From contig NZ_JABBCQ020000006.1 of assembly GCF_012844455.2 (NCBI RefSeq), forward strand, positions 62,001 to 126,000: a stretch of DNA of 64,000 nt. Direction: 5' to 3'. The stretch is from Comamonas suwonensis (GTDB lineage: Bacteria; Pseudomonadota; Gammaproteobacteria; Burkholderiales; Burkholderiaceae_C). This document shows positions 10,275-56,536 of this stretch, piece by piece. Each line of letters opens with the position of its first letter. Within the stretch, counting starts at the first letter, position 1. The notes beneath the pieces are model-generated. The model was not told where the DNA came from. It searched no databases and saw only the letters and a list, made by a program, of their open reading frames with translations. A program made the position numbers and the translations under genes.

Positions 10275-10311
10275 AGCGACTAACACTACCCAGGGTTGCA
10301 TTTGAGACGAG

Positions 10312-10469: not shown

Positions 10470-12776
10470 ATGCCGTCTCTTCCAATCCTCCCTCGCCTCA
10501 ATCTCAGCCCCAGACTCAGCCCGTTCGTTCTGTGGTTTTTTGCATTGATTTTGATAGCTACCAGCGCTTTACCTATAAGCGCCAGAGCACAAATCAACCT
10601 GGGTTTATCCAGCAGCAAAACCAGCACCTCGGCCGCCGTGGTGCAGACACCACGCGTGCGCGCCGAATTGGTGGCGCAAGCGCCCGATGGGATTGCCGCA
10701 GGCCAGACCTTCTGGCTGGGCCTCAAGCTGGCCCATGAGCCCGACTGGCACACCTACTGGAAGAACGCCGGCGACTCCGGCTTGCCCACCGAACTGCAGT
10801 GGCAGCTTCCCGCCGGTCTGAGCGCTGGAGCCATTGACTGGCCCACGCCCCACGCCCTGCGCGTAGGCCCGCTGGTCAATTACGGCTACGAAAACACCGT
10901 GCTGCTGCCCATTCCGGTCAAGGTTGCCAGCGACTTCAAGGCGCCTGAATCCGGCATGGTGGAGGTACGCCTGTCGGCCAGCTGGCTGATCTGCCGCGTG
11001 GAATGCATTCCCGAAAGCGGAGAGTTCGCGCTGCAGATTCCCGTGGGCGGCAGCACCGCCACCCATAGCGAAGACTTCTTCAAGGCGCAAGCCCAGCTGC
11101 CTGCAGCGCTGAGCGATAACGGCAAGGCCAGCATTCAAGCCGATGCCAATGCAGCCAAGGGCACGGTGCTGGATGACCGCATCAGCCTGCGCGTCACAGG
11201 CCTGCCAGCCGCCCTTCAGGGCAAGACGCTGGAGTTCTACCCCGAAAACGCCGAAACCTTCAGGCATGCCGCCGAGTCCGGCAAGGACTGGCAGCAGCGC
11301 TGGGAGGGCAATGTGTGGGTGGCTGAGGGCATCCCGCTGTCTGACATGCGTGGCGAAACGCCCAAGCAACTGGCCATCGTCATCGCGCTCGCCAACAAGG
11401 ACCGCATCGCAGCGATGGGCAAGGGCGAGCCCATTGCCTGGCGCAGCACGCTGGATGTATCGGGGCAATGGACGCCTGCCATGATGGCCAGCGTCTCCCC
11501 CGCTCTGGCCGCTGCGCTTGAAGCCAACAAAAATACGGCGGCTGCACCGGCCCCCACCAGCGCCAGCAACACCGGTATCTGGGCCGCACTGCTGGGCGGA
11601 TTGATTGGCGGGCTGATTCTCAACCTCATGCCCTGCGTGTTTCCCGTGCTGGCCATCAAGGTGCTGGGCTTTGCGGGTCATGGCCAGAATCGTCGTGCTC
11701 AAAAAATAAGCGGTCTGGCCTATACCGCTGGTGTGGTGCTGTCATTTGTAGCGCTGGGCGCGCTGCTGCTGGGCCTGCGCGCTGCGGGCCAGCAGCTGGG
11801 CTGGGGCTTTCAGCTGCAGTCACCCATTGTCGTGTCACTGCTGGCGACGCTGTTCACCGTGCTGGGGCTGAATCTGGCAGGGCTGTTTGAGTTTGGCAGC
11901 CTGCTGCCCAGCCATATCGCCAGTGCACAGGCGCGCAACCCGGTGCTGGACTCCTTCCTCTCCGGCGTGCTGGCCGTGGCCATTGCATCGCCCTGCACGG
12001 CCCCGTTCATGGGCGCCTCTCTGGGTTTTGCGATTGACATGCCCTCCGCACAGGCGCTGACGGTGTTTGCCGCCCTGGGCGTTGGCATGGTTCTGCCTTA
12101 TCTGCTGGCCAGTTTTGTGCCCGCCGTAGTCAGCTGGCTGCCCCGCCCCGGCGCGTGGATGGAGACCTTCCGCCGCGCCATGGCCTTCCCCATGTTTGCG
12201 ACCGTGGTCTGGCTGGTGTGGGTGCTGGGCCACCAGAGCGGCATGGACGCAGCAGCTGCCCTGCTGGCCCTGCTGCTGGTACTGGCCGCGCTGATCTGGG
12301 CACTGGGCCTGAGCGGCAAAAGCCGTCTGGCACTCAGCGCCATCGCTGTGCTGCTGGTGGCGGGTGTAGGCTATTACGCCGCCCCTCTGATCACCGCGCC
12401 GCCGGCAGAGCCGGCACAGGCGCAGAACGGCGAAGGCCAACTATGGCAGCCGTGGACGGCTGACAAGGTTCAGTCTCTGCAAGCGGCCAATCAGCCCGTG
12501 TTTGTGGACTTTACCGCCGCATGGTGCGTGACCTGTCAGGTCAACAAGCGCACCACGCTCAGCCATGCGGATGTACTGGCCGCTTTTGAGCAGCACAAAG
12601 TGCAACTGCTGCGCGCCGACTGGACAAGGCAGGATCCGGCCATTACCCAGGCCCTGCATGCGCTGGGCCGTAGCGGCGTACCGGTCTATGTGCTGTATGT
12701 GCCAGGCAAACCGCCCGTGGTGATGAGCGAGCTTCTGTCCAAGAGCGAGGTACTGGACGCACTGCAGAAAATTTAG
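10470..12776 (+). CDS. DsbD-family protein-disulfide reductase
   Basis: A membrane electron shuttle that carries reducing power from cytoplasmic thioredoxin to periplasmic proteins. Order: signal peptide (1-40, cleavage ISARA/Q); an N-terminal DsbD-like domain containing the cysteine pair ICRVECIPESGEF; a polytopic core with NLMPCVFPVL and ASPCTAPF, the paired membrane cysteines; and a C-terminal thioredoxin domain with AAWCVTCQ. At 768 residues it is longer than E. coli DsbD (about 565) and has a larger N-terminal domain, closer to ScsB-like proteins. Its signal peptide is encoded by a family A repeat. It converges with a VOC gene. Confidence 0.9.
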   Translation: MPSLPILPRLNLSPRLSPFVLWFFALILIATSALPISARAQINLGLSSSKTSTSAAVVQTPRVRAELVAQAPDGIAAGQTFWLGLKLAHEPDWHTYWKNAGDSGLPTELQWQLPAGLSAGAIDWPTPHALRVGPLVNYGYENTVLLPIPVKVASDFKAPESGMVEVRLSASWLICRVECIPESGEFALQIPVGGSTATHSEDFFKAQAQLPAALSDNGKASIQADANAAKGTVLDDRISLRVTGLPAALQGKTLEFYPENAETFRHAAESGKDWQQRWEGNVWVAEGIPLSDMRGETPKQLAIVIALANKDRIAAMGKGEPIAWRSTLDVSGQWTPAMMASVSPALAAALEANKNTAAAPAPTSASNTGIWAALLGGLIGGLILNLMPCVFPVLAIKVLGFAGHGQNRRAQKISGLAYTAGVVLSFVALGALLLGLRAAGQQLGWGFQLQSPIVVSLLATLFTVLGLNLAGLFEFGSLLPSHIASAQARNPVLDSFLSGVLAVAIASPCTAPFMGASLGFAIDMPSAQALTVFAALGVGMVLPYLLASFVPAVVSWLPRPGAWMETFRRAMAFPMFATVVWLVWVLGHQSGMDAAAALLALLLVLAALIWALGLSGKSRLALSAIAVLLVAGVGYYAAPLITAPPAEPAQAQNGEGQLWQPWTADKVQSLQAANQPVFVDFTAAWCVTCQVNKRTTLSHADVLAAFEQHKVQLLRADWTRQDPAITQALHALGRSGVPVYVLYVPGKPPVVMSELLSKSEVLDALQKI
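10549..10595 (+). repeat. Family A repeat inside the DsbD-family signal peptide
   Basis: TTTTGATAGCTACCAGCGCTTT, then ATAAGCGCCAGAGC and an AAATCA flank. It is in frame and encodes residues 28-42 (IATSALPISARA/QI), that is the end of the hydrophobic region and the signal-peptidase site. Confidence 0.75.
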
Positions 12777-12789
12777 CTAGCCGGCCTTC

Positions 12790-13176
12790 TCAGACCTGCG
12801 CCAGTTCCTCGTGCAGGCAGAGATAGTTGCCCTCCGTGTCCTTGAACCAGGCGGCCTTTTCGGAACCCAGCACACAGACATGGTTGACGGTCTTGAAGTC
12901 CGGGAAGTCGTAGTCCTCAAACACCACGCCCCGGCTTTTCAGCGCCTCAATGCTCGCCACGATATCGGGCACTTGGAAGCTGATGGCCGTGTGCTCGGCC
13001 TTGGTCCCGCCCGGCTTAGGGAACAAGGCCAGAGCACTGCCGCCAACCTGGTAGACAAACTTCCCGTCGGGTCGCAGCGCCCCCGGTTGCAGCCCCAGAC
13101 ACTCTTCGTAAAAAGCGCGGGCACGCACCATATCGATGACCGGCAGCATCGTCGTCACAGCGGAATGGCTCAGCAT
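12790..13176 (-). CDS. VOC/glyoxalase-fold protein
   Basis: A small cytoplasmic protein (128 residues) of the vicinal-oxygen-chelate superfamily. It shows the paired beta-alpha-beta pattern: TMLPVIDMVRARAFYEECLG at the N-terminus and WFKDTEGNYLCLHEEL at the C-terminus. Family members include isomerases, dioxygenases and antibiotic-binding proteins. The substrate is not evident. ATG 13176 has a strong AAAGGAG site 6 bases upstream, so the longer open frame upstream is not used. The gene converges with the DsbD-family gene, only 13 bp apart. Confidence 0.85.
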   Translation of the reverse strand: MLSHSAVTTMLPVIDMVRARAFYEECLGLQPGALRPDGKFVYQVGGSALALFPKPGGTKAEHTAISFQVPDIVASIEALKSRGVVFEDYDFPDFKTVNHVCVLGSEKAAWFKDTEGNYLCLHEELAQV

Positions 13177-13479
13177 AGAAGCTCCTTTGCTCGGCGCTGC
13201 GGGAGCATGGCCCTGAGTCGAGCAAGCCAAGCTTAGCCCCGGCTTTGCGCAGGAGCCAGAGCGATACCGGCGAATGAACTGGGTGCAATCAACTTTACGA
13301 CTGTGCACATCGGCCGCATGCGGCAGGCAGCATCAGGCGCAGCAGCCCTATGGCACAAACAGGGTAAACGTTCTAGACTGGAGTTGCCCACAAGCCAGGC
13401 TCCACCGCAGTTTCCAGCCTCTGCCAGCCATGCATGCTCTGTCCACTGCGGCCCGCCTGAACAGCACAGGAGGTCAGCC
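13177..13479. other. Divergent intergenic region
   Basis: About 300 bp between two divergent genes. No coding frame with convincing codon use, no repeat family copy and no clear hairpin was seen. It presumably holds both promoters. Confidence 0.5.
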
Positions 13480-13995
13480 ATGCATATCAGTCTGCTCCAT
13501 TCGTCGCCCCATCAACGCCATTGCCTGCTGCGTGCGCTGGCACTGGCCAGTCTGGCCATTGCAGGCATCGCCTTGCCGTTTGTCTGGGACTTTCTTGCCG
13601 CGATCAACAGCATGCCCAAGATGCACTGGCTGCAGCAAATGCTGGAGCAAATGCCTGCCGCCAGCTGGCTGATGATGTTTGTCTGGGGCGGAGCCATTCC
13701 TCTGGTCTTGCTACACAGCCTGCAGCAGACGCCTAGCCACAAGCTGCGCACTGTAGTGCTGATGATGGTACTGATGTGGATTGCCGTCACCTGGTACGTA
13801 CACATGCCCGCCAGCAACCAGTGCACCATGCTGTACGAGTCATGGGAATGGGCCTGCTCCGTTCTGCAATGGGGCTTCAGCATGAGCCTGCTGCTGGCGA
13901 TTGCGGCCTATGCCTTCCTGATGCTGGGACTGGTGATCAGCTCACTGGGCCAGCTGTCAGAAGGCATGGAGGATGAAAAAAGCCACGCAGCCTGA
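13480..13995 (+). CDS. Hypothetical inner-membrane protein
   Basis: 171 residues with about four hydrophobic segments (roughly 17-38, 60-78, 84-104 and 124-152). The start ATG 13480 is set by an excellent AGGAGGT site. Two cysteines lie in the predicted periplasmic loop (NQCTMLYESWEWACSVL). The C-terminus is short and acidic (EGMEDEK). No family recognised. A strong terminator follows, so it is a single-gene unit. Confidence 0.75.
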   Translation: MHISLLHSSPHQRHCLLRALALASLAIAGIALPFVWDFLAAINSMPKMHWLQQMLEQMPAASWLMMFVWGGAIPLVLLHSLQQTPSHKLRTVVLMMVLMWIAVTWYVHMPASNQCTMLYESWEWACSVLQWGFSMSLLLAIAAYAFLMLGLVISSLGQLSEGMEDEKSHAA

Positions 13996-14017
13996 AATCC
14001 GCTGCGCCTGAACCCAC

Positions 14018-14047
14018 AAGCCTGCGGTGATTGCCGCAGGCTTTTTT
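14018..14047 (+). terminator. Rho-independent terminator
   Basis: AAGCCTGCGG, loop TGATTG, CCGCAGGCTT followed by T6. It closes the membrane protein gene and sits between convergent genes. Confidence 0.9.
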
Positions 14048-14061
14048 GATTCAAACTGCAC

Positions 14062-14916
14062 TCAGTTCTTGATACGGCCAAACAGGCGGCGATAGCGCGA
14101 TGGCAAATCCTGCATTCGCATCATGATGGGCAGGTCTGCCGTGTTGAAGTCGCAATCCCAGGCCGGAGCCCCCAGCACCTTGGCGCCAGCGCGCAGATAG
14201 CCCTGAATCAGCGCGGGCGGCTCAACTTGCAAAGCATCGACCGACACATCACTGATGTGCGCCAACTCTTCAGGCAGGGCCACACGCGGGCGAACCTGCA
14301 GCCCAGCCTCGGCCAGGTGGGTTTGGCGCAGTTGCTGCCAGATGCGCGCCGGGCCTTCACCATGGGCCAGACCTGGATACTGCATGGGAATACTGGCACA
14401 GCCCACCATGGCTTCGAGCTGGTTACGCTGCATGAACTCTGCCAGAGCGCCCCACAGCGCCAGAATCACGCCGCCCTGACGGTGCTCTGCATGTACGCAG
14501 CTACGGCCCAGCTCCACCATTTGGTCACGCCAGCCGTTGATGGGGGTCAGATCGAATTCCTGATCACTGTACAGACCTCCGGCACGACGGGCCTGTGCGG
14601 GCGTCAGCAGCCGGTAAGTGCCAATCACCTTGTTCTGCACTTCATCGCAGATCATCAGATGCTCGCAAAAGTCGTCGAAAAAGTCGATATCGTGGCCGGC
14701 CACAGGCGTCTGCAGCACAGCGCCCATTTCCTCGGCAAAGACCTGGTAGCGCAGGCGCTGAGCCTGCCTCACTTCATCCAGATGTCTAGCCCAGCGCACC
14801 TGCAAGCGCAAAGCGGGCGCTGCCGCATGCGCGGGACTAGGGAGAGAAGCAAGCGGCGATCTCGATGCCGAAGCCTGGGATGTGGTAATCGCCTCAAGTA
14901 TCTCGGGATGCCTCAT
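14062..14916 (-). CDS. OlsB-like GNAT acyltransferase (ornithine lipid synthesis, probable)
   Basis: 284 residues of the hemolysin/OlsB branch of the GNAT fold. These enzymes add a 3-hydroxyacyl chain from acyl-ACP to ornithine to make lyso-ornithine lipid at the inner membrane. Family features: VRQAQRLRYQVFAEEMGA, DIDFFDDFCEHLMICD, VIGTYRLL, ELGRSCVHAEHRQGGVILALWG (the acyl-donor binding loop) and GCASIPM. The first 30 residues are a Ser/Ala-rich extension. No olsA partner is adjacent, so the ornithine-lipid role is inferred from the family only. Confidence 0.8.
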   Translation of the reverse strand: MRHPEILEAITTSQASASRSPLASLPSPAHAAAPALRLQVRWARHLDEVRQAQRLRYQVFAEEMGAVLQTPVAGHDIDFFDDFCEHLMICDEVQNKVIGTYRLLTPAQARRAGGLYSDQEFDLTPINGWRDQMVELGRSCVHAEHRQGGVILALWGALAEFMQRNQLEAMVGCASIPMQYPGLAHGEGPARIWQQLRQTHLAEAGLQVRPRVALPEELAHISDVSVDALQVEPPALIQGYLRAGAKVLGAPAWDCDFNTADLPIMMRMQDLPSRYRRLFGRIKN

Positions 14917-15056
14917 GCCTGCTTACCTCTCGATGTTGGACGCAGTCGGCGGCCTGCCTGTGCCACACAGTATGTCTGCGTGCCCTCATTGTGAAAAATG
15001 CAAATGAAGCCTGCATGGCAGTTGCATGACGTTTGCGTGACGCCCCTCCCTGAAAG

Positions 15057-15131
15057 CCGCGAAGCCGCAAACAGTGCGAAAGTACTGGCAAGCGACACAA
15101 CGACATATCAAGGCTTGTATTCGCGGGTCTA
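15057..15131. repeat. Family C repeat, copy 2
   Basis: CCGCGAAGCCGCAAACAG, GCGAAAGTACTGGCAAGCGA, CACAACGACATATCAAGG, CTTGTATTCGCGGGTCT. It aligns block by block with the copy at 10.3 kb and lies upstream of hemE. Confidence 0.65.
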
Positions 15132-15213
15132 AAAAAGCCACATCACCCAGAGGTGTGGATTGCTGCTCGGGAATGTGGTGAATAGAAAAGCCAGAGTGGG
15201 CGACAATCAAGCC

Positions 15214-16329
15214 ATGAGCTTCGCCCCCCTGACCAATGACACCTTCCTGCGCGCATGCCGTCGCCAGGCTACTGACTACACGCCCCTGTGGCTGATGCGC
15301 CAGGCGGGACGTTACCTGCCTGAATACAAAGCTACCCGCGCCAAGGCAGGGAGCTTCATGGGCCTGGCCACCAATGTGGACTACGCCACCGAAGTGACGC
15401 TGCAGCCGCTGGAGCGCTTCCCGCTTGATGCAGCCATTCTGTTCAGCGACATCCTCACCGTGCCTGACGCCATGGGCCTGGGCCTGACGTTTGCCGAAGG
15501 CGAAGGTCCACGCTTTGCCAATGTCGTACGCGACGAGGCCGCAGTGGCTGCGCTGGCTGTGCCCGATATGGACAAGCTGCGCTATGTGTTTGATGCCGTC
15601 ACCAGCATCCGCAAGGCGCTGAATGGCCGCGTGCCACTGATCGGTTTTTCGGGCAGCCCCTGGACGCTGGCCTGCTACATGACCGAAGGCAAAGGCAGCG
15701 ACGACTACCGCACTGTCAAGTCCATGATGTACTCGCGCCCCGACCTGATGCACCGTATTCTGGAAGTCAACGCCGACAGCGTGGCCCAGTACCTGAATGC
15801 CCAGATCGACGCAGGTGCTCAGGCCGTGATGATTTTTGACAGCTGGGGGGGCGTGCTGGCCGACGGTGCTTTCCAGGAATTCAGCCTGACCTATACCAAG
15901 CGCGTGCTGGCCCAGCTCAAGCGCACCGGTGTGGACGGCACCGATGTGCCCCGTCTGGTCTTCACCAAGGGCGGCGGCATCTGGCTGGATGACATGAAGG
16001 ATCTGGACTGCGAAGTGCTGGGTCTGGACTGGACTGCCAATCTGGGCAAGGCTCGCGCCATTGTCGGCGGCCAGGTCGGTGGTCCCGGCAAGGCACTGCA
16101 AGGCAATATCGATCCCAACGTGCTGTTTGCAGCCCCAGAGCAAGTCGCCGCACAGGCCCGCGCCGTGCTGGATAGCTTTGGCAAGCCCCACACAGACCGC
16201 AGTACCACCGGCCCCACCCACATCTTCAATCTGGGTCACGGCATCAGCCAGTTCACCCCGCCTGAGCATGTGGCCGCGCTGGTCGAGGCGGTGCACAGCC
16301 ACTCGCGCCTGCTGCGCACACAGGGCTAA
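15214..16329 (+). CDS. hemE: Uroporphyrinogen decarboxylase
   Basis: A cytoplasmic heme-pathway enzyme that decarboxylates the four acetate side chains of uroporphyrinogen III to give coproporphyrinogen III. The 371-residue protein carries the signature [15 protein letters not shown] near the N-terminus, the conserved aspartate region [22 protein letters not shown], and the C-terminal FNLGHGI. ATG 15214 ([14 protein letters not shown]) gives the normal family start. A long hairpin follows the stop codon. Confidence 0.97.
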
Positions 16330-16337
16330 ACCGAACC

Positions 16338-16380
16338 AGCAACAAGTGCCTACGCGCATCGCGAAATGGCACTTGCTGCT
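16338..16380 (+). terminator. Long hairpin downstream of hemE
   Basis: A 13-bp stem: AGCAACAAGTGCC pairs with GGCACTTGCTGCT (one wobble), with an inner CGCG-CAT-CGCG hairpin in the loop. It has no T tract, so it may be a processing or stability structure rather than an intrinsic terminator. A second short stem (GCCCGG...CCGGGC) lies at 16398-16414. Confidence 0.55.
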
Positions 16381-16526
16381 CACTTTCTGAGCTTTGAGCC
16401 CGGTTTCCCCGGGCTAACGACTCAGTCAGCCAAAAGGTTATTGCGCGACAATCGCTTGCTCCTAGCGCAACAAAATCAAAGCAAGCCTTTGATTTAAAAG
16501 AATTAAATTTCAGACCCCGAGAAATG

Positions 16527-16556
16527 AAGCGCCAACGAGGTTTGGCGCTTTTTTAT
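16527..16556 (+). terminator. Rho-independent terminator in the hemE-priA gap
   Basis: AAGCGCCAA, 6-nt loop, TTGGCGCTT followed by a long T-rich tract. It lies about 200 bp after hemE, and no gene is seen between the two. Confidence 0.85.
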
Positions 16557-16589
16557 TTTTTCTTGTGGCTCTCGCTTGATAGATAAAAG

Positions 16590-16935
16590 TTATCCACACG
16601 CATCGCTTTAAAAGCCGCACAGTCCCTTGCAAGTGCTTGGATTAATGCTATTTATTAAGGAGTTGCAGACTTTGCGCAGGAGTTTGCACGCATTTAGGTT
16701 TAGGGAGCTTCTCGGTTGACAGCAGCGCCCCGCCTGATTTATGCACAGATGTGGCAAAGCAGACTTCTTGTAAGCGCTTGACCTAGCAAAGTTTCCAAAG
16801 ACACGGAAATCAAATATAAGTATTTGTTTTATATATATTTTTTAGTCCACCAGATCTGTTGCAGATTGACTAACTTCAGACTTAAAAGTTGAGAGCGTCA
16901 CCTTCGGCCTATTTTTCCTCACAAAGTTATCCACA
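16590..16935. promoter_or_regulatory. DnaA-box cluster with AT-rich stretch upstream of priA
   Basis: Two exact consensus DnaA boxes TTATCCACA (16590-16598 and 16927-16935), plus TTATGCACA (16739-16747) with one mismatch. Between them lies a strongly AT-rich run (about 16808-16850, including TTTTATATATATTTTTT). The roughly 690-bp gap between hemE and priA has no coding frame worth calling. The layout is like a DnaA-binding locus: an origin, a titration site or a DnaA-controlled promoter of priA. Which of these cannot be told from the sequence. Confidence 0.5.
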
Positions 16936-17021
16936 GACCGCAAAGCCTTTGCAGGCCTCAAAATCTGCTATAGCTCTGAGAACATCGGCCAGACCGATGA
17001 CTCCAACCCTTCTTCCCGCAC

Positions 17022-19199
<2,178 letters not shown>

Positions 19200-19215
19200 G
19201 ACCTCTGACTTCAAG

Positions 19216-20515
<1,300 letters not shown>

Positions 20516-20517
20516 GC

Positions 20518-20612
20518 CCTCCTACTGAGCCGCTGATGCGGCTTCCCCTCAAGGGGACGGCAGCCTTTGCCGCGAGACGGCTCTTGCTGGCTGCCTCTTT
20601 GCGGGTCCATGC
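20518..20612 (+). repeat. Family B post-stop repeat, copy 2
   Basis: Begins two bases after the asparaginase stop: CTACTGAGCCGCTGATGCGG, CTTCCCCTCAAGGGGACGG, CAGCCTTTGCCGCGAGACGG, CTCTTGCTGGCTGCCTCT. Confidence 0.8.
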
Positions 20613-20637
20613 TTGATTTCAGCTTAGAGGTCAAAAC

Positions 20638-20681
20638 AGCGGCTTGTGCAGGTGGTACTTGCACAAGCCGCTATTGTTTTT
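20638..20681. terminator. Strong terminator between convergent genes
   Basis: AGCGGCTTGTGCA, 9-nt loop, TGCACAAGCCGCT: a perfect 13-bp stem followed by ATTGTTTTT on the plus strand. On the minus strand it is followed by GTTTTGA, so it may also serve the AEC permease. Confidence 0.85.
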
Positions 20682-20682
20682 G

Positions 20683-21633
20683 CTAGACCATCAAAGCCAC
20701 GGCAGCGGAAAAGGTCAGAAACGCCAAACTGGTCGAGACCAAGATGATGCGTGCCACACGGCCACTGTGAGCAGCGTAGCGGTCGGTCAGCAGCGAGACA
20801 TTGCTGGCGGATGGCAGTGCAGCCAGCAGCACCAGCACAACCAGTGTTTCGTGGCTCAGCGAGAGGCCCATGGCCATGGCGCTCATACCCACAGCCCAGA
20901 CCAGCAGCGGGTGAATGATGAGTTTGGCCAGTGCAATCGGCACATAGTCACGCGCGGCCACGCGCTCGTGGCTATTCATTTGAGAGCGGGCCAGCACCGC
21001 GCCAATGGTGAACAGCGCGACGGGAGAGGCGGCCCCGGCCAGCATGGCCACGGTTTTATCCACCGGGCCGGGCAGCACCCAGCCCATGGCCGATGCCAGA
21101 CCGCCCAGCAAGATGGACCACGGCATGGGGTTGGCAGCCATGCCCTTGAGCGAGCTGCGCACCGCAGTCCAGACACCTTGCCCACCCGCCAGATCCAGCC
21201 TCGACAGCGCGATGCAGGCGGAGGTGGTGATGACCATGTCGATGGCCATGGTGACAATGATCGGCCCCGTACTTTGTGCTCCCAGCAGGGCTGCCAGCAT
21301 GGGCACCCCCATGAAGCCGGTATTGGGAAAGGCGGCGACCAGTGCGCCAAAGGCTGCATCGTTCCAGCCCATGCGCCTGCGGGTCAGCAACACCGTGGCG
21401 CCCACCATCGCAGCGGCGCACAGCAGGTAGACCAGGGTGACGTTGATATCCAACAGCTGATGAATGGGCGTCTGCGCGCCAAAGCGATACAGCATGCAGG
21501 GCAGCGCAAAGAACAGCACAAAGGCGTTCAGGCCGGGAATCGCCGCCTGCGGCAGTACGCCGCGCCAGGTGGCAATAAATCCGCAGGCCACCAAGGCAAA
21601 GAAGGGGAAGGTGATAAGTAGTACGGACAGCAC
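20683..21633 (-). CDS. AEC family transporter (auxin efflux carrier-like)
   Basis: An inner-membrane permease of the AEC family, about 316 residues with ten hydrophobic segments. Family features: N-terminal FFALVACGFIATWRGVLP, LNAFVLFFALPCMLYR, and AAFPNTGFMGVPML. The C-terminal half contains ALPSASNVSLLTDRY. Bacterial members export or take up small carboxylates, and the substrate is not evident here. The start is uncertain: GTG 21633 gives the usual length but lacks a ribosome site, and an in-frame TTG at 21639 is an alternative. The longer frame to 21726 adds a basic segment without homology. Confidence 0.85.
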   Translation of the reverse strand: MLSVLLITFPFFALVACGFIATWRGVLPQAAIPGLNAFVLFFALPCMLYRFGAQTPIHQLLDINVTLVYLLCAAAMVGATVLLTRRRMGWNDAAFGALVAAFPNTGFMGVPMLAALLGAQSTGPIIVTMAIDMVITTSACIALSRLDLAGGQGVWTAVRSSLKGMAANPMPWSILLGGLASAMGWVLPGPVDKTVAMLAGAASPVALFTIGAVLARSQMNSHERVAARDYVPIALAKLIIHPLLVWAVGMSAMAMGLSLSHETLVVLVLLAALPSASNVSLLTDRYAAHSGRVARIILVSTSLAFLTFSAAVALMV

Positions 21634-21704
21634 GCACAAATTGTGACAGCGCTCAGGTTTCGCTCTTACTCCTGCGCCATGAAAAAAATTCAGCCGGAGG
21701 CATA

Positions 21705-21737
21705 CCCAAAAACAAAGCCTGCACAAGGCAGGCTTTT
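21705..21737 (-). terminator. Terminator of the roadblock-GTPase operon
   Basis: Read on the minus strand: AAAGCCTGC, loop CTTGT, GCAGGCTTT, then GTTTTTGGG. It lies 23 bp after the last gene of the operon. Confidence 0.85.
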
Positions 21738-21759
21738 CCAGGCGGCAGAACTGAGCACC

Positions 21760-22119
21760 TCAGATCTTGAGCTCTTTCTCCACTTCAGCCACTTTGCGGC
21801 GAGCCAGAGCCAGGTTGGCACGGGACTTGTCCAGCACCAGATAAAAGAACACACCGTCGTTGGCAGACACGGGACGGATGATGTGGTACTGCTTTCCCAG
21901 CGTAATCAGGATGTCGTCGATCTGATCGTTCAGGTTCAGCATGCGCATGGTCTTGAGCTTGGCACGCACCACTTCGGTGTTACCAGCAGCGGCCAGCTCC
22001 ATGTCCACTCCACCTCCGACGCTCCCCATCAGCATGCCGCTAGTACTGTCGACCAGTGCACCACAAATGGAGCCGTCAGATGTCATCAGAGCGTTCAGAG
22101 AATCTTGAATAGAGGGCAT
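21760..22119 (-). CDS. Roadblock/LC7 domain protein (second of the operon)
   Basis: 119 residues forming a single roadblock/LC7 fold: MPSIQDSLNALMTSDGSICGALVDSTSG, then LMGSVGGGVDMELAAAG, and the final strand-helix HIIRPVSANDGVFFYLVLDKSRANLALARRKVAEVE. Bacterial roadblock proteins such as MglB bind small GTPases and act as their GAPs or scaffolds. It is the last gene of the operon, 85 bp after the first roadblock gene and followed by a good terminator. It is only distantly similar to its neighbour, which suggests a heterodimer or distinct roles. Confidence 0.85.
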   Translation of the reverse strand: MPSIQDSLNALMTSDGSICGALVDSTSGMLMGSVGGGVDMELAAAGNTEVVRAKLKTMRMLNLNDQIDDILITLGKQYHIIRPVSANDGVFFYLVLDKSRANLALARRKVAEVEKELKI

Positions 22120-22204
22120 AAATCCACCTTATAAAAAAGCAAGACAAGGAACCCACGCAACCACTGCGCATACTTTCAAACACAGAACCCCGGTGCGCCT
22201 GTTT

Positions 22205-22603
22205 TCAGGGCAGGAACCCGGTTGAAACCTCACCCGCCGCCCAGAGTGCACGGCCTAGCAAGGCGTTCTGATCGACAACCAGACAGAGAACGGCCGGGAA
22301 TGACCCGTTCACCGCCTGGAAAACCACCGTGCCCGACTCCGTCTCAAACGTCAGGCGCCGGCAATCCTTGTGACTGATTTCATTGGCCACGGCCTTGGCC
22401 ATGGCCATCAGCGACCCGGCCATGGCGGACAGTCGCTCGGTAGGCAATTCACTGCGAATGCGCAACGCCGTAATCTCGAACCCGTCAGGGGTGCAGAGCA
22501 ACGCAATGTGCACGCCAGATACAGGGGCCACCACACGCGACAGAATTTCTTGGCCGGCCTCAATGACATGAGTCGGGATCACAAAAGGAGTATGGTTTTT
22601 CAT
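22205..22603 (-). CDS. Roadblock/LC7 domain protein (first of the operon)
   Basis: 132 residues with the roadblock pattern: IEAGQEILSRVVAPVSGVHIALLCTPDGFEI, then LSAMAGSLMAMAKAVANEIS and a strand VLCLVVDQNALLGRALWAAGEV. It starts on an ATGA overlap with the stop of the GTPase gene, so the two are translationally coupled. A direct partnership with the GTPase is therefore likely, in the manner of MglA-MglB, but that is inference from context and family. Confidence 0.85.
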   Translation of the reverse strand: MKNHTPFVIPTHVIEAGQEILSRVVAPVSGVHIALLCTPDGFEITALRIRSELPTERLSAMAGSLMAMAKAVANEISHKDCRRLTFETESGTVVFQAVNGSFPAVLCLVVDQNALLGRALWAAGEVSTGFLP

Positions 22604-23163
22604 AGGGTCTGACTTTGCAGGGACAGCAGCGATGCCAGCACACCGAGGGCGTCCAGCATCTGCTGGCGATCACGGGGATCGGCTTCGACAATGGGCACAA
22701 CGTCATGGCCCTTGGCCATCAGGGCCGCACTGAAAGCTTCCAGCTGCGCCCCGTTGGCGGTGCGGCAGCTGAGGAGAATCATCAAAGGCGCAGCGTCCAG
22801 CTCCGCCGCACCGGTCAGCATCTCGGAGGCGTATTCCACGGCATCCGCATCATTGACATCAACCATCAGCAGTGCGCCCACCGAGGCAGACAGCACCCAG
22901 CGTCGCACAAAGTCAAAACGGTCCTGACCAGGGCTGCCTACGAGCTGCAGACGTTCACCAGAGCCCAGATCAATTTCGCCAAACTCGGCACCAACAGTCG
23001 TGAACTCTTTGGCGTGTGCGCCTTTGTCCAGATTACGAACATCACTGCCCGCCATGAGTTCTCCGCAAAGACTGCGCAAAGCCGTGGTCTTGCCTATGCC
23101 CATAGGCCCTAAAAGGCTCACCCGCATCAGGCCTTGGCCAGGCTGGGGCATAAAAGGTGTCAT
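22600..23163 (-). CDS. Small Ras-like GTPase (MglA/SRPRB-like)
   Basis: 187 residues. Walker A GPMGIGKTT (19-27), a threonine in the switch I region (EFTTVGAEFGEIDL), and switch II LVGSPGQDRFDFVRRW, the GxPGQxRF form found in bacterial GTPases coupled to roadblock proteins. The expected guanine-specifying NKxD is not present: the region reads LMILLSCRTANGAQ. The start ATG 23163 has GGAGG 6 bases upstream and overlaps the stop of the preceding gene (ATGA). The 15 extra codons of the longer frame lie inside that gene. It acts in the cytoplasm, and its cell process is unknown. Confidence 0.85.
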   Translation of the reverse strand: MTPFMPQPGQGLMRVSLLGPMGIGKTTALRSLCGELMAGSDVRNLDKGAHAKEFTTVGAEFGEIDLGSGERLQLVGSPGQDRFDFVRRWVLSASVGALLMVDVNDADAVEYASEMLTGAAELDAAPLMILLSCRTANGAQLEAFSAALMAKGHDVVPIVEADPRDRQQMLDALGVLASLLSLQSQTL

Positions 23164-23897
23164 GAACGTCCTCCGCGCGTAATCCAGCCCGTCAACTTGC
23201 TCACCCATTGGCGCGTGACCGACGTAGCTGGCTGCGTTTTTGTTGATATGGGCGCTGCAGACGTCTCCTGAGAGCTACGCAAACTGCAGCGCAATACGGC
23301 CTGAACCTGAGGTCGAGACAACAGGGTCAACAATTGAGACATTTCAATGCCCGAATGATCGCTGATGGACTTGGCATCAATCGGCCCGCGTGACAACAGC
23401 GCCAGCACCCGCATATTCTGTGCGGTGTTCGCACTGCCAGGCAATGCGACCCACGAGCGCAGCTGAAAGCGGTGCATGCAGTCAAAGCCTTGCTGCTGAA
23501 GATCATCCAGAGCCCGCTGCAAAGTCAGCGTGACGCTGACTTTTTGGCGAGCCCTCCAGTCCATGAGAAAGACTGCCGCACGATCGAGCATGTCAATCAG
23601 ATCGGACAGCGTGAAGTCCACATCCAGGTGAGCGGCCCAACCTTGCGAAGAGCGACCCAGCGGCTGCATCGCTGCCTCTCCACCCACGTAAACCACACAG
23701 GGAGCCTTTGTCTCGTCTTTCGACACCTGAGGCGCAAAGCCTTCAAGTACCAGTACTTCTGCCGAATGCCTGGGCACCTGGCGCCAACCAGACAGTGACT
23801 TGCGTGCAGCCACAGCAAACAGAGACTCAAAGCGCTGCTGTACAGCAGGCGTCCAGAGCTCTGCAGCCAAGCTTACTTCACCAATGGTTCTCGCCAT
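23160..23897 (-). CDS. Uncharacterised protein heading the roadblock-GTPase operon
   Basis: 245 residues, no signal peptide or membrane segment, no family recognised. The N-terminal part (about 1-105) alternates strands and helices (CVVYVGGEAAMQ; DLIDMLDRAAVFLMDW). The C-terminal part contains VLALLSRGPIDAKSISDHSG and MSQLLTLLSRPQVQAVLRCS, which reads like a winged-helix fold, and ends in a Ser/Thr-rich linker and basic tail. ATG 23897 has AGGG about 8 bases upstream. Its stop overlaps the GTPase start, so it is made together with the GTPase and may be a regulator, effector or exchange factor. Confidence 0.75.
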   Translation of the reverse strand: MARTIGEVSLAAELWTPAVQQRFESLFAVAARKSLSGWRQVPRHSAEVLVLEGFAPQVSKDETKAPCVVYVGGEAAMQPLGRSSQGWAAHLDVDFTLSDLIDMLDRAAVFLMDWRARQKVSVTLTLQRALDDLQQQGFDCMHRFQLRSWVALPGSANTAQNMRVLALLSRGPIDAKSISDHSGIEMSQLLTLLSRPQVQAVLRCSLRSSQETSAAPISTKTQPATSVTRQWVSKLTGWITRGGRS

Positions 23898-24179
23898 GCA
23901 GAGCACCCTAACTGTGATAGAAAAAATAAATAGCCCATATCAAACCATAGCAAATTCACTTGATACTCGGCATATTCAGTCAGACATTACACAATCTTTC
24001 ACACTACAAAACTAACACCTTATTACAACTAATTATTAGAGCTACGCGCACTCACCAATGTAGGTAAAACGCTCACTGTGTCCCTTCTTTTTGTCAGTTG
24101 TGAGAAGCGCGATCAGAGCTGTTCTCAGTGAGGCGGTATGCTGCCAGTCCTTGTTTTTGATGATGGGTCACTCTGCGTC

Positions 24180-26252
24180 ATGTCCGTTGGTCTCAATCTC
24201 GCTCAGCTTCAGGCCGTGCATTACACCGAAGGTCCCTGCCTTGTTCTGGCCGGTGCCGGCTCGGGCAAGACCCGTGTGATTACGCACAAGATCGGCCGCC
24301 TGATCGAGACCGGTCTGGCACCCCGCCGCATTGCGGCCATTACCTTTACCAACAAGGCTGCGGCTGAAATGCGCGAACGCGCTGCCGGGCTGATTGGCCG
24401 GCAGGCCAAGGAAGTGCTGATCTGCACCTTCCACTCACTGGGCGTGCGCATGGTACGCGAGGATGGCCATATCCTCGGCCTCAAGCCCAAGTTCAGCATT
24501 CTGGATACCGACGATGTGACCGGCATTCTGAAAGACTGCGCCGGGGTCACCACCGATGTGGCTACTGCTCGTCAGTGGCAGTGGACTATCAGCGGCTGGA
24601 AAAACAACGGCTGGGACAGCCGCAAGGCGCTGGCCATGGCCCAGGACGACAACGAGCGCAGCACCGCCCTCATCATGCAGCGCTACGAAGAGCGCCTGAC
24701 CGCTTACCAGAGCGTGGACTTTGACGACCTGATCGGCATGCCCATGCGCCTGCTCAAAGGCCACCCAGAAGTACGTGAGAAATGGCAGCGTCTGCTGGGC
24801 CATGTGCTGGTCGATGAATATCAAGACACCAACGCCACGCAATACGATTTACTGAAGATGCTGGTGGGCGAGCGCGGCCACTTCACGGCCGTGGGTGACG
24901 ATGACCAGAGCATCTACGGCTGGCGCGGTGCCACGCTGGACAATCTGAAGAAGCTGCCGGTCGATTTTCCGCAGCTCAAGATCATCAAGCTGGAGCAGAA
25001 CTATCGCTCCACCAGTGCTATTTTGCGGGCAGCCAACAATGTGATCGGCCCCAACCCCAAGCTGTTTCCCAAGACGCTGTTCTCTGAACTGGGTGAGGGC
25101 GAGCCCGTGCGCATCGTCGACTGCGACACCGAAGAGCATGAAGCCGAGCGCGCAGTGGCCCGTATTCAGGGGCTGCGAGCCAGCATGAACCCGCAGCCGG
25201 CGTGGAAGGATTTCGCCATCCTCTACCGAGCCAACCACCAGGCCAAACCGTTTGAAAAGGCGCTGCGCAAGGCCAGCATTCCGTACAAGGTCTCAGGCGG
25301 CACCAGCTTCTTTGACCGGGCGGAAATCAAGGACCTGTGCGCCTGGTTCCGCCTCTGGATCAACAACGACGATGACCCGGCGTTTCTGCGCTCCATCGGC
25401 ACACCCAAACGTGGCATTGGCCACACCACGTTAGGCAAGCTGGGCGAATTCTCAGGCGCACACAAACTGAGCATGTTTGGCGCGCTGTTCAACGCCATGC
25501 TGGAAGACGCCTTGCCCAAGAAGGCCTTCGAGAGCCTGCTGGAGTTTGGACGTTACATCAACGACCTGGAGTATCGCGCTCGCCATACCTTGGGAGTCGA
25601 TGCTTCTCGTGCCTTTTTGATGGACTGGCTCAAGGAAATTGGCTACGAACAGTATCTGTACGACAGCGAAGACAGTGAGTCCGTAGCCGCTGCTCGCTGG
25701 AGCAATGTGCTGGAGTTCTGCGACTGGATGGCACAGCGCGCTGGCGGCAAGATTGAAGATGCCGCAGGCACGACCACAGAGACCGAAGTCAAGAGCCTGT
25801 TGGAGGTCTCACAGAACATCGCCTTGCTTTCGACTATCAGCGAACGGGAAAAAGAGCAGGACATGGTCGTGCTCTCCACCCTGCACGCCTCCAAAGGTCT
25901 GGAGTGGCCGCATGTCATGCAGGTCGGCGTAACCGAGGGAATGCTGCCTTTCAAGCTCGACGATGACAACGGCAAGCAGCAAAAGGTCAGCGATGAAACA
26001 GCGGCCCGCCTGCAGGAAGAGCGCCGCCTGATGTACGTGGGCATCACCCGCGCCCAGCGCACGCTGGCCGTCAGCTGGACCAAACGCCGTAAGAAGGGCC
26101 GCGAAATGGTGGCCTGCATGCCAAGCCGCTTTATCAAAGAGATGGGACTGGACGCGGCCACCGCCAAGGAAGACCCGCGCGAAAAGCTGCGCAAACTGCG
26201 CGAAGAATTTGCCGCACGCAAAAGCCCTGCCGTACCGGGCGCGGCCAACTGA
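24180..26252 (+). CDS. rep: Rep-type ATP-dependent DNA helicase
   Basis: A superfamily 1A 3'-5' helicase, 690 residues. Motifs in order: LNLAQLQAVHY (Q motif), LAGAGSGKTRV (Walker A), TFTNKAAAEMRER, VLVDEYQDTNATQY (motif II), GDDDQSIYGWRGA (motif III), LEQNYRST (IV), LHASKGLEWPHV (V) and YVGITRAQRTLAVSW (VI). Length and the DEYQDTN form fit Rep better than UvrD or PcrA. The C-terminal tail is short. An in-frame ATG at 24138 has GAGG 5 bases upstream and would add 14 residues; I prefer 24180 by family alignment. It is divergent from the roadblock-GTPase operon across an AT-rich gap of about 280 bp. Confidence 0.93.
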   Translation: MSVGLNLAQLQAVHYTEGPCLVLAGAGSGKTRVITHKIGRLIETGLAPRRIAAITFTNKAAAEMRERAAGLIGRQAKEVLICTFHSLGVRMVREDGHILGLKPKFSILDTDDVTGILKDCAGVTTDVATARQWQWTISGWKNNGWDSRKALAMAQDDNERSTALIMQRYEERLTAYQSVDFDDLIGMPMRLLKGHPEVREKWQRLLGHVLVDEYQDTNATQYDLLKMLVGERGHFTAVGDDDQSIYGWRGATLDNLKKLPVDFPQLKIIKLEQNYRSTSAILRAANNVIGPNPKLFPKTLFSELGEGEPVRIVDCDTEEHEAERAVARIQGLRASMNPQPAWKDFAILYRANHQAKPFEKALRKASIPYKVSGGTSFFDRAEIKDLCAWFRLWINNDDDPAFLRSIGTPKRGIGHTTLGKLGEFSGAHKLSMFGALFNAMLEDALPKKAFESLLEFGRYINDLEYRARHTLGVDASRAFLMDWLKEIGYEQYLYDSEDSESVAAARWSNVLEFCDWMAQRAGGKIEDAAGTTTETEVKSLLEVSQNIALLSTISEREKEQDMVVLSTLHASKGLEWPHVMQVGVTEGMLPFKLDDDNGKQQKVSDETAARLQEERRLMYVGITRAQRTLAVSWTKRRKKGREMVACMPSRFIKEMGLDAATAKEDPREKLRKLREEFAARKSPAVPGAAN

Positions 26253-26260
26253 TACCGAAC

Positions 26261-26689
26261 ATGACTCTGAAAACTCTGCTTTTCATAGCTGCAAGCGCTT
26301 GTGCAACGGGCGCTTGGGCGCAATTTGATGCAAGTATCACCAGCGCTTGCCCGCAAGACTGGCAGATGTCCGACAAGCAACTGCAAGGCGAATGGCTAGG
26401 CTCAATCAAAGGCAGTGACGAAAGCATTCTTATCGTCCTGGGGCCGCACCCTGAGTGGGAGGGCAATGTCAAAGGCCGCATCAGCCGCCCCGGCAGCAAC
26501 CACCCCATGGTGGGCGATGTGAACCAAGGCTCTGTTACGCTGGAAGAAAGCGCAGATGGCTCACGCATCACCGGCACCTGGCTCGGCGAGGTCACGGAAG
26601 GCAGCTGCGGCACAGAAATTCACGGCAGTTACCTAGAGGGAGAAGATGCTCCACCTCATGCGTTCATCATGCGCAAGGCCAAGCCTTGA
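26261..26689 (+). CDS. Small secreted protein of unknown function
   Basis: 142 residues with a short signal peptide (FIAASACATGAWA/Q, cleavage after residue 20) that is encoded by a family A repeat. The mature part looks like a small beta-rich domain: LQGEWLGSIKGSDESILIVLG and ITGTWLGEVTEGSCGTEIHGSY, where the two GxWLG strands suggest an internal duplication. Two cysteines may form a disulfide. It starts 8 bp after rep and is 50 bp ahead of pldA. Function unknown. Confidence 0.75.
   Translation: MTLKTLLFIAASACATGAWAQFDASITSACPQDWQMSDKQLQGEWLGSIKGSDESILIVLGPHPEWEGNVKGRISRPGSNHPMVGDVNQGSVTLEESADGSRITGTWLGEVTEGSCGTEIHGSYLEGEDAPPHAFIMRKAKP
26281..26326 (+). repeat. Family A repeat inside a signal peptide (second case)
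   Basis: TTTCATAGCTGCAAGCGCTTGTGC, then GGGCGCTTGGGCGCAATTTGA. It is in frame, encodes residues 8-22, and uses the same reading frame as the copy in the DsbD-family gene, including the A-x-A/Q cleavage site. Confidence 0.75.
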
Positions 26690-29646: not shown

Positions 29647-29665
29647 ACAAACCAGCTCTTTCAAT

Positions 29666-29728
29666 CAAAACAGCCTGCAGCGCTCACCAGTCCTGCGTAG
29701 GCAGCTTTTAAAAACATAGCAATCAGGT
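29666..29728 (-). repeat. Degenerate family A repeat, copy 6
   Basis: On the minus strand: GATTGCTATG, AAAAGCTGCCTACGCAGG, then GAGCGCTGCAGGCTGTTTTGA. Its right end matches the AGCGCTnnAGGCTG part of the family; the left is eroded. It fills the gap between the ligase and thioesterase genes. Confidence 0.45.
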
Positions 29729-31345: not shown

Positions 31346-31363
31346 GACTCCGACCTTTCAGGC

Positions 31364-31413
31364 AAAAACAGGCTCTAGCGCTTTAGCTACGAGCGGTATC
31401 AGCTATGGTTTTT
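31364..31413 (-). repeat. Family A repeat overlapping the acyl-CoA dehydrogenase stop
   Basis: On the minus strand: AAAAACCATAGCTGATACCG, CTCGTAGCTAAAGCGC, TAGAGCCTGTTTTT. The TGA of the dehydrogenase gene lies inside the element, in CATAGCTGA. Confidence 0.7.
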
Positions 31414-32562
31414 GATGACATCGCGCCCAATGATGAGCTGCTGCACCTCGGTCGCACCTTCGTAGATGCGCAGGGCGCGAATCTCGCGGTACAGGCGCTC
31501 TACCGGCTGCTCGCTGACCACGCCCAGCCCACCCCAGATTTGCACCGCCGCATCAATCACCTGCTGGGCGTTTTCCGTCGCCGTCATCTTGGCCATCGCC
31601 GCTTCGCGCGTCACGTTCTCGCCTTGGTCACGCATCCATGCCGCGCGATAGGTCAGCAGCGCGGCGCTGTCGATCTGCGTCGCCATCTGCGCAATCTTGG
31701 CCTGCGTCAGCTGAAAATCCGCCAGCACGCCATTGAACATCTTGCGCGTGGTAACCCGGTGCAAGGCCTCGTCCATCGCCCTGCGTGCAAAGCCCAGCGA
31801 TGCGGCGGCCACTGAGGTGCGAAATACATCCAGCGTGCGCATGGCGACCTTGAATCCTTCACCCGCCGCGCCCACGCGCTGGCTCACAGGCACGCGACAG
31901 TTGGTGAACCGGAGCCGTGCCAGAGGGTGCGGTGCAATCACATGAATGCGCTCGGCAATTTCAAAGCCGGGCGTGCCGGCCTCCACAATCAGCGCGGATA
32001 TGCCGCGTGCGCCCGGTGCCTCGCCCGTGCGGACAAAGACGACATAGATATCGGCAATGCCGCCGTTAGAGATCCAAGTCTTCTCGCCATTGATGACGTA
32101 GTGATCACCATCCAGCGTGGCCTCGCAAGCCATGGCAGCGACATCAGAGCCTGCATCAGGCTCTGACAACGCAAAGGCCGCAATCGCACCGCCTTTAGCG
32201 ACGCGTGTCAGGTTGCGCTTTTTCTGCTCTGCTGTACCCGCCAGCGATATGGCGCCAGAACCCAGCCCTTGCATGGCAAACGCAAAATCGGCCAGTCCGC
32301 TGTGCCGCGCCAGCGTTTCACGAATCAGGCAAATGGCGCGCGTATCGATCTGCTCACCCGCGCCGCCATAGGCCTTACCCGCCACGGCATGCCTGAGCCA
32401 GCCCGCCTCGCCCAGCGCCTTGACCAGTTGCCTGCATTCGGCATCCACGTCGGAGCCATGTCCATGCTCTATGTTCTTCGTCGCCCAGGCATCCAGAGAC
32501 TGCGCCAGACGGGCGTGGTGGGGCTCAAAAAAAGGCCATTTCAGATAGCTGCTGTCTGCCAT
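31399..32562 (-). CDS. Acyl-CoA dehydrogenase of the aromatic CoA operon
   Basis: A 387-residue FAD enzyme. Domain features: [17 protein letters not shown] (flavin and substrate strand), [18 protein letters not shown], and [35 protein letters not shown], where the Glu of YEGATE is the usual catalytic base. In this operon it would oxidise a ring or ring-cleavage CoA thioester during beta-oxidation-like steps. ATG 32562 has AAGGGA upstream and lies one base after the preceding gene's stop. Its own stop codon is supplied by a family A repeat. Confidence 0.9.
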
Positions 32563-37809: not shown

Positions 37810-37819
37810 TTAAGTAGCA

Positions 37820-37869
37820 AACAAGCCTCAAGCGCTTATTCATCAAGCGCAAGAAGCTATCAAATCAGG
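37820..37869 (-). repeat. Family A repeat, copy 8 (well conserved)
   Basis: On the minus strand: TTTGATAGCTTCTTGCGCTTG, ATGAATAAGCGCTTGAGGCTTGTTT. One of the copies closest to the consensus. It lies between convergent genes. Confidence 0.8.
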
Positions 37870-37872
37870 ACT

Positions 37873-46891: not shown

Positions 46892-46948
46892 GTATCTCTC
46901 CCTTTTGCGCTGCAGGCATTGTGCCTATTTGCTCAGATCTTTTTGTAG

Positions 46949-47000
46949 GTTTTATGCCGCAAGCGCTTGATGAACATGCGAAAGCCGCTATGAAAATCAT
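46949..47000 (-). repeat. Family A repeat, copy 9
   Basis: On the minus strand: GATTTTCATAGCGGCTTTCG, CATGTTCATCAAGCGCTTGCGGC, ATAAAACC. It lies just after the ceramidase-like gene. Confidence 0.75.
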
Positions 47001-47004
47001 TGTT

Positions 47005-48660: not shown

Positions 48661-48683
48661 GCCGCGGGCGCAAGAACTACTGA

Positions 48684-48730
48684 ATTCATAGCTACCAGCG
48701 CTTACAAACAAAGCGCTTAAGGCCAATTAC
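48684..48730 (+). repeat. Family A repeat, copy 10
   Basis: ATTCATAGCTACCAGCGCTTAC, AAACAAAGCGCTTAAGGCCAATTAC. It follows the HTH gene by about 24 bp. Confidence 0.75.
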
Positions 48731-48866
48731 ATACAAACTTCACCGAGCAGACACACAAGATTGCAAGACTTCGCAAAGCGGCAACCGGCGGTTGACGCTG
48801 GCCTTCCATCATTGAGACCAAGGGATGCCTGAACCGGCACCCCAACTACCCATGAAGGAGGCAAGC

Positions 48867-53442: not shown

Positions 53443-53462
53443 GTTTCTGGCGTGGCTTTTCT

Positions 53463-53557
53463 TTTTTGATAGCTGCTAGCGCTTTTAAATCCTTGGATTG
53501 ATGGCAAATATGCGCTGAAGCTCTCTGAAATCGAGCGCTAGAAGCTATTAAATTCAG
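53463..53557. repeat. Long family A element with terminal inverted repeats
   Basis: GATAGCTGCTAGCGCTT (53468-53484) and GAGCGCTAGAAGCTAT (53533-53548) form near-perfect inverted ends around about 48 bp containing an internal TGCGCTGAAGCTC. Short copies elsewhere may derive from such an element by loss of the middle. Confidence 0.75.
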
Positions 53558-56460: not shown

Positions 56461-56487
56461 GAAATCTTCTCCATTCAAATTCAAGAC

Positions 56488-56536
56488 AAATCAGGCTGTA
56501 GCGCTTATCAATCAAGCACTTGCAGCTATGGTTTTG
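56488..56536 (-). repeat. Family A repeat overlapping the DUF2946-like stop codon
   Basis: On the minus strand: AAAACCATAGCTGCAAGTGCTTG, ATTGATAAGCGCTACAGGCTGATTT-like end (CTACAGCCTGATTT). The TGA of the gene is in GTGCTTGA, so its last residues TIAASA are encoded by the repeat. Confidence 0.75.

Follow-up and report, generated by a model that had tools for sequence, protein, structure and literature searches.

The window analysed here is a 64-kb stretch of the 4.72-Mb genome of Comamonas suwonensis (G000; contig NZ_JABBCQ020000006.1, positions 62,001 to 126,000), which we compared with relatives from the same genus (53 genomes, including G000). It contains a dsbD-type gene and a gene for a 142-residue secreted protein, and each of these carries, within its signal peptide, a copy of a repeat that we call family A and that also occurs between genes (Table 1). 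The two host proteins are unrelated, one having DsbD domains and the other having no Pfam or NCBIfam match. The N-terminus of the dsbD product reads ...ALILIATSALPISARA/QINL, with ATA GCT ACC AGC GCT TTA CCT ATA AGC GCC AGA GCA CAA as the motif codons, and that of the 142-residue protein reads MTLKTLLFIAASACATGAWA/QFDA, with ATA GCT GCA AGC GCT TGT GCA ACG GGC GCT TGG GCG CAA. The family A core, ATAGCTNNNAGCGCTT, is present exactly at 10554 in dsbD and at 26285 in the other gene, and its ATA is an in-frame codon in both. An earlier note on this DNA had described the repeat as encoding the end of the hydrophobic region and the A-x-A/Q cleavage site in both genes, in one frame, and this description is borne out. 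Judging from their sequence and from the A-x-A/Q ends seen in orthologs, both N-terminal peptides are predicted to act as export signals. The genes were called by a codon-usage script, which retained both signal peptides only when extensions of the open reading frames (ORFs) were allowed.

Copies of family A have T-rich flanks and often an inverted half-site on the 3' side of the core. Two profiles of the family were built without using the signal-peptide copies. One was seeded with the eight other copies in the window and recovers the dsbD copy (E=6.3e-7) and the 142-residue copy (E=1.2e-8) in a search of the 64 kb; the other was built from 78 copies with an exact core outside called ORFs, at least one palindromic copy being counted on both strands, and has the consensus nnncTntnaAtTtgATAGCTgCtAGCGCTTgatnnatAAGCGCTagAggCnatTTTnattnn. 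Among the window matches to the 78-copy profile, the dsbD copy (40.1 bits) ranks second and the 142-residue copy (33.2 bits) ranks fifth. Over-representation of this one motif is strong across the genome, with 95 exact matches to a 16-nt pattern against none for the reversed pattern, and 377 matches to a 29-nt pattern with up to three mismatches against one for the control, palindromes being counted on both strands. The 78-copy profile at 10 bits or more gives 406 matches, with overlapping loci and both strands counted repeatedly, against none in 772 kb of reversed sequence. The exact 29-nt motif is also present in 48 stretches from viral contigs, in a collection described as holding 2.9 million contigs, and four loci searched against Rfam gave no match up to E=1.

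The motif codons of dsbD are conserved beyond the needs of the protein. We examined 110 dsbD loci, 96 of them distinct and with a cleavage call, the rest being duplicates or without a call; in a few cases (L122, L127, L242) the rule put the cleavage site in the wrong place. Among Comamonadaceae dsbD orthologs from several genera, not selected by the motif, the isoleucine 12 residues before the first mature DsbD residue is encoded by ATA in 40 of 42 cases, compared with 57 of the 1701 isoleucine codons elsewhere in these genes, and the adjoining codon is GCT in 32 of the 42. Within the genus, we took as orthologs the 30 best of the genomes with a match (41 for the 142-residue protein, 53 for dsbD, 45 for methylmalonyl-CoA mutase and 52 for lpxB). 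In those that bear the motif, ATA is kept in 14 of 14 (dsbD) and 15 of 16 (142-residue protein), no other column with ATA exceeding 3 of 14 and 3 of 16, and pairwise conservation of the codons ATA and GCT (in dsbD also TTA, TTG and AGA) is 70 to 100%, compared with 0 to 29% elsewhere; these 14 and 16 orthologs were picked by a motif-like pattern, so the test is partly circular. An overall matched test of synonymous conservation gave p=0.0076 for dsbD. The comparison of rare codons was done after this result, and the weaker one for the 142-residue gene, had been seen.

It might be argued that rare codons are selected in signal peptides and that their likeness to the repeat is due to chance, as the conserved codons are indeed rare in these genes. 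We regard this as very improbable, because profiles built without these copies recover them at the scores given above, because motif-free dsbD orthologs have ordinary codons in their signal peptides, and because the same AT-rich codons are found in an internal stretch of lpxB.

Across several genera, the profile finds the dsbD copy in loci of Acidovorax, Simplicispira, Giesbergeria and Ramlibacter, as well as in C. odontotermitis (18.7 to 45.1 bits), while only ATA GCT remains in Rhodoferax and Polaromonas, and ATA GCA in some Variovorax. The earlier note had reasoned that its view would fail if distant genera kept this DNA only as codons for a common signal peptide, with no relation to the intergenic copies; the first half of this is seen, in that the same DNA stands at the same dsbD codons elsewhere, yet the sequence belongs to the intergenic family. 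The dsbD genes of G007, G024, G048 and G049 (L134-L137) are more distant, with 63-65% identity, and free of the motif; in the same four genomes the 142-residue protein is 74-77% identical, as close as in motif-bearing species. Gene replacement of dsbD is possible in these four.

Both signal-peptide copies read I-A-x-S-A in their common frame. One of the three sense-strand frames runs into the obligatory TAG of ATAGCT and a second gives the polar S-x-x-R; the stop codon in the one and the polar residues in the other account for the frame that the two signal peptides share. The I-A-x-S-A frame is open for at least 13 codons at 18 of the 30 best loci, 16 of which are not the two signal peptides (for example MLFIAASALGISATCQF), so the look of a signal peptide is inherent to the motif. 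In a sample of 196 distinct copies of at least 14 bits, 152 are intergenic, 15 lie at gene edges and 29 lie in ORFs. Eleven of these 29 are sense, with eight in the I-A-x-S-A frame and the other three being a 55-residue ORF, a start extension and a 14.8-bit match; of the 18 antisense copies, 15 are in the frame A-L-x-A-I-K and three in another. A third gene of this kind is L291, which encodes a 160-residue cupredoxin-like protein with a motif copy (22.4 bits) at its start; three of the eight copies in the I-A-x-S-A frame are in signal peptides. This share is inflated by 73 additional places contributed by a model that had been trained on the signal-peptide copies. The 95 exact matches are a less biased set: nine copies fall wholly within a long ORF, two of them in signal peptides; another two entries represent a single palindrome within a 55-residue ORF, and in six the overlap with an ORF or with its extension is 3 to 26 bases long. 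A scan of the relatives' stretches for more in-gene copies returned only the dsbD of G022. In-gene hosts include the recombination and replication genes L305 (DprA), L079 (RarA) and L061 (DNA polymerase III alpha-like), and an antisense copy of 32.5 bits, in the less usual frame, lies in a BREX PglX methyltransferase-like gene (L315:24-2492; below the family's curated cut-off).

The earlier note had gone on to suggest that insertion of the element creates signal peptides. Fifteen of 17 motif-free dsbD orthologs have no gap over the 16 motif-coded residues and keep the end of the signal peptide (for example LMAAGAFSTGAGAQIR in G052). For the 142-residue protein, 13 of 16 motif-free orthologs are gap-free over these residues (for example LIAAGALASVVQAQNS in G043); in five of the 16 (G001, G002, G033, G051 and G052) what aligns there is no signal peptide, and thus their N-termini are not comparable. 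The strongest evidence against insertion comes from two internal copies in enzymes. The LpxB copy is gap-free over the motif against the solved LpxB 5w8n, presumably that of E. coli, and the 171-residue lpxB query was matched end to end in all 52 matching genomes, spanning exactly 513 nt in 51 of them and 519 nt in G031, while the motif score among the 30 genomes runs from 37.8 bits down to none. The methylmalonyl-CoA mutase copy is gap-free against the mitochondrial mutase 8gju, which we take to be the human enzyme, and in each of the 45 matching genomes the match spans exactly 603 nt; in G035 the 30 residues are identical to those of G000 but are written in other codons, and the motif is absent. 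By eye, spacers that carry the motif do not differ consistently in length from those that lack it. An excess of one element length in motif-bearing genes is thus not seen in LpxB, in the mutase or relative to the 15 dsbD orthologs, the exceptions being PgeF and ThiL. Given the gap-free orthologs, the gap-free enzyme copies and the spacer lengths, we find no support for insertion as the origin of the signal peptides, and the shared frame that had prompted the idea is to be expected in any case. Gain and loss of the motif by point mutation in coding DNA is seen in two genes, among the mutase and LpxB orthologs, and these comparisons suggest that motif copies appear and fade by single-letter changes.

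Abundance of family A varies widely among the 53 genomes of the genus, from 1 to 389 counts of the 29-nt pattern (up to three mismatches, strands summed), and we call the 31 genomes with 50 or more counts motif-rich and the other 22 motif-poor. In 119,756 bases of motif-poor genomes the 78-copy profile finds three matches of at least 10 bits. Among the 30 orthologs of each, and with kinship ignored, the 142-residue copy (at least 12 bits) is present in 14 of 18 motif-rich and none of 12 motif-poor genomes, and the dsbD copy (at least 12 bits) in 13 of 20 and none of 10. The mutase copy follows the same pattern (5 of 20 and 0 of 10; Spearman p=0.0035). Motif-poor lpxB genes show vestiges such as GCT ATT AAA ATA GTA. 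Of 200 genomes from the wider family, 151 contain one match or more, usually just a handful near control counts, and large numbers are limited to certain genera.

From these patterns we consider it probable that in the Comamonadaceae family A acts as a genome-wide motif for DNA recognition, arising and disappearing through point substitutions and maintained at the DNA level, and not as a mobile element that inserts into genes. Its copies would build up by point mutation, a DNA-level process would maintain them, some lineages would have lost that process, and the motif would shape its host proteins in the manner of uptake sequences. Signal peptides may host the motif because the residues of the sense frame, [L/F]-I-A-x-S-A-x-x-x-S/G-A-x-A, already correspond to the typical composition at the end of a signal peptide; for copies inside proteins, the A-L-x-A-I-K reading of the antisense strand would suit helices.

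Several observations weigh against this reading. Signal-peptide copies are missing in 4 of 18 (142-residue protein) and 7 of 20 (dsbD) motif-rich genomes, and the LpxB copy (at least 15 bits), present in 9 of 20 motif-rich and 4 of 10 motif-poor genomes, shows no link to abundance (Spearman p=0.20). In the 142-residue copy, the codons GCC and GCA are more variable than elsewhere, AGC is about equally constant elsewhere, with no clear difference, and the overall synonymous-conservation test for this gene is weak (p=0.086). Nine in-gene copies were compared with solved structures; two are clean and gap-free, two nearly gap-free, one shorter, two longer and two uninformative. RarA is five residues shorter at the motif, with one extra residue, the DnaE-like L061 has two single gaps there, DprA has a four-residue indel just past it, and the comparisons for the FDH fusion linker and HemD are uninformative. 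At PgeF the unaligned stretch is about 30 residues longer than in the homolog, and ThiL has seven extra residues against its solved homolog; both would fit insertion and fit point mutation less cleanly. (PgeF and DnaE2 are the names we take to apply to in-gene hosts.)

The extra residues at PgeF and ThiL would be explained by an ancient palindromic element, resembling repetitive extragenic palindromic (REP) sequences or miniature inverted-repeat transposable elements (MITEs), that long ago inserted in or beside genes, gave dsbD the end of its signal peptide and now only decays, an older form of the earlier note's idea. Such an element would likewise account for a palindromic, mostly intergenic family of hundreds of copies and for a dsbD copy common to several genera. 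We nevertheless think it unlikely: the internal LpxB and mutase copies are gap-free, motif-free spacers are not consistently shorter, the sole Y1_Tnp gene found in the genome has no adjoining copy (best 3.7 bits), and Y1_Tnp matches, present in 47 of 53 genomes, do not set motif-rich genomes apart from motif-poor ones (compared without a formal test). Mobilisation by a REP-associated tyrosine transposase (RAYT) was considered separately and is likewise not supported, no association with a Y1_Tnp gene having been seen.

The placement of the intergenic copies raises another objection. The 152 intergenic copies comprise 49 in convergent spacers, 84 in co-directional and 4 in divergent ones, 12 in spacers longer than 600 bp and 3 without two flanking genes, whereas control spacers from these loci, with those bearing the motif counted in, number 77, 273 and 69. 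Convergent spacers are thus favoured and divergent ones avoided, which fits a terminator too, and three intergenic copies fold better than shuffled sequences (z -2.7 to -3.2), as do the dsbD copy (z -2.6) and the 142-residue copy of G034 (z -2.5). An RNA hairpin, acting as a 3'-end terminator or stabiliser of mRNA and selected as a structure, would make the signal-peptide copies incidental. That is quite unlikely in our judgement, since the sequence is preserved in the internal copies of the mutase, lpxB and L061, which nevertheless fold no better than shuffles (z -0.5 to 0.8), 18 of the 29 in-gene copies are antisense, the window's 142-residue copy folds weakly (z -1.2), and covariation is weak (one pair, z 3.3). 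One Acidovorax dsbD copy also does no better than shuffles (z -0.7). Inside genes it is therefore the sequence, not the hairpin, that seems to be conserved.

Table 1. Genes hosting family A copies in their signal peptides, and family A copies, in the window
Feature	Position	Strand	Evidence
dsbD-type gene, 768 residues	10470..12776	+	ORF; Pfam DsbD_N, DsbD_TM, Thioredoxin_7; N-terminal signal peptide
Motif copy in dsbD signal peptide	10542..10590	+	40.1 bits (78-copy profile); counterparts in other species and genera
Intergenic copy upstream of ORF 19277-20515	19217..19269	-	22.0 bits (78-copy profile)
142-residue secreted-protein gene	26261..26689	+	ORF; no Pfam or NCBIfam match; in 41 of 53 genomes of the genus, own included
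Motif copy in 142-residue signal peptide	26272..26331	+	33.2 bits (78-copy profile); orthologs
Weak intergenic copy	29665..29719	-	14.9 bits (8-copy profile); 11.6 to 29.4 bits in 5 of 6 relatives with both flanks
Copy in short spacer, overlapping end of gene 31399-32562	31362..31415	-	19.4 bits (78-copy profile)
Intergenic copy between convergent genes	37818..37872	-	37.1 bits (78-copy profile)
Intergenic copy, seed of 8-copy profile, strong only with it	46948..47004	-	38.7 bits (8-copy profile)
Intergenic copy, seed of both profiles	48676..48732	+	40.2 bits (78-copy profile)
Two oppositely oriented copies between convergent genes	53460..53560		25.9 and 25.1 bits (78-copy profile)
Intergenic copy	56484..56541	-	36.9 bits (78-copy profile)

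As to the process that would maintain a recognition motif of this kind, sequence-biased DNA uptake, as for the uptake signal sequences (USS) of the Pasteurellaceae and the DNA uptake sequences (DUS) of the Neisseriaceae, seems the most likely candidate by analogy. Recognition by a chromosome-organising or nucleoid protein instead of uptake machinery would predict much the same, including in-place evolution, genome-wide presence and half-site symmetry; we know of no such protein for the family A motif, and consider this alternative doubtful, if a serious one. More specifically, and only tentatively, we propose that a family-wide signal of the uptake type rewrote proteins in place, that the rare-codon DNA of dsbD has been frozen since before Comamonas, Acidovorax, Rhodoferax and Ramlibacter split, and that lineages losing the system erased the motif while keeping the signal peptide.

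Uptake sequences build up by point mutation under a DNA-level process, and some lineages lose the system; DUS have a dedicated receptor such as ComP. To our knowledge no signal of the uptake type is recorded outside the Neisseriaceae and Pasteurellaceae, and the Comamonadaceae would be the first such case. Family A resembles USS and DUS in having hundreds or more copies, intergenic inverted pairs capable of forming hairpins, and intragenic copies that are biased in orientation; within genes, family A shows in-place change and a frame bias. It differs in its core of about 16 bp with a long inverted partner, against 10-12 bp, in its fewer copies, in belonging to another bacterial family, and in a role in uptake that is hypothetical. 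One account of uptake sequences describes intergenic inverted pairs together with orientation-biased intragenic copies, cites recombination and replication genes as a favoured class, and gives nearly 1,500 copies for the Neisseria DUS (PMC2346458); the lower number for family A counts as a further point against the proposed reading. Palindromic repeats translated within genes are likewise known as Rickettsia palindromic elements and as enterobacterial and Yersinia MITEs fused in frame. Those elements are described as insertions, whereas length is unchanged in the clearest family A cases. In PMC2229807, the signal peptide of Yersinia YPO1552 is said to be partly derived from a repeat, a precedent for a signal peptide from a repeat, there by insertion. 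REP sequences and bacterial interspersed mosaic elements with RAYT are, like family A, short, palindromic, mostly intergenic and present in hundreds per genome; family A differs from them in showing no link to a Y1_Tnp gene and in having two in-gene copies that clearly arose in place.

A literature search for six motif strings found them in no paper, and one for "DNA uptake sequence" with "Comamonadaceae" found no paper. None of the names sought is present in the RepRanger paper (PMC12306157; four names) or the GTAG-REP paper (PMC3733652; six names). Should this reading hold, codons and even residues in conserved enzymes and export signals would be set by a signal at the DNA level throughout a bacterial family, and the apparent insertion of a mobile repeat would in fact be the evolution of a motif where it stands. 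A well-studied family of environmental bacteria would also gain a candidate signal for transformation, with dsbD, lpxB and the mutase as testable hosts for how strongly a recognition motif constrains the proteome.

Counterparts of the window copies often occur at the matching place and in the same orientation in relatives. The copy at 19217..19269 has the same orientation in all six relatives in which both flanks were found (10.9 to 31.8 bits). With the 78-copy profile, the copy at 46948..47004 scores 9.2 bits on the minus strand and 11.2 bits on the other. The upstream part of ORF 19277-20515, whose product we take to be asparaginase-like, includes some 80-100 bases (within 19280-19390) that are nearly invariant in several species, more so than the spacer beyond; this may be a regulatory leader, or a longer N-terminus of the asparaginase-like gene. 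The gene after that for the 142-residue protein has ATAGCCAGCAGCGCTG in its N-terminus (26818-26833), two mismatches from the half-site and absent among the 78-copy profile matches. The window also contains a second repeat (family D9) of 79 nt, 72% identical between 10310-10388 and 15055-15133, and, centred on GCCGCGAGACGGCTCTTGC, repeats of a third kind (families D4 and D10) at 20551-20601, 50533-50583 and 53378-53428.

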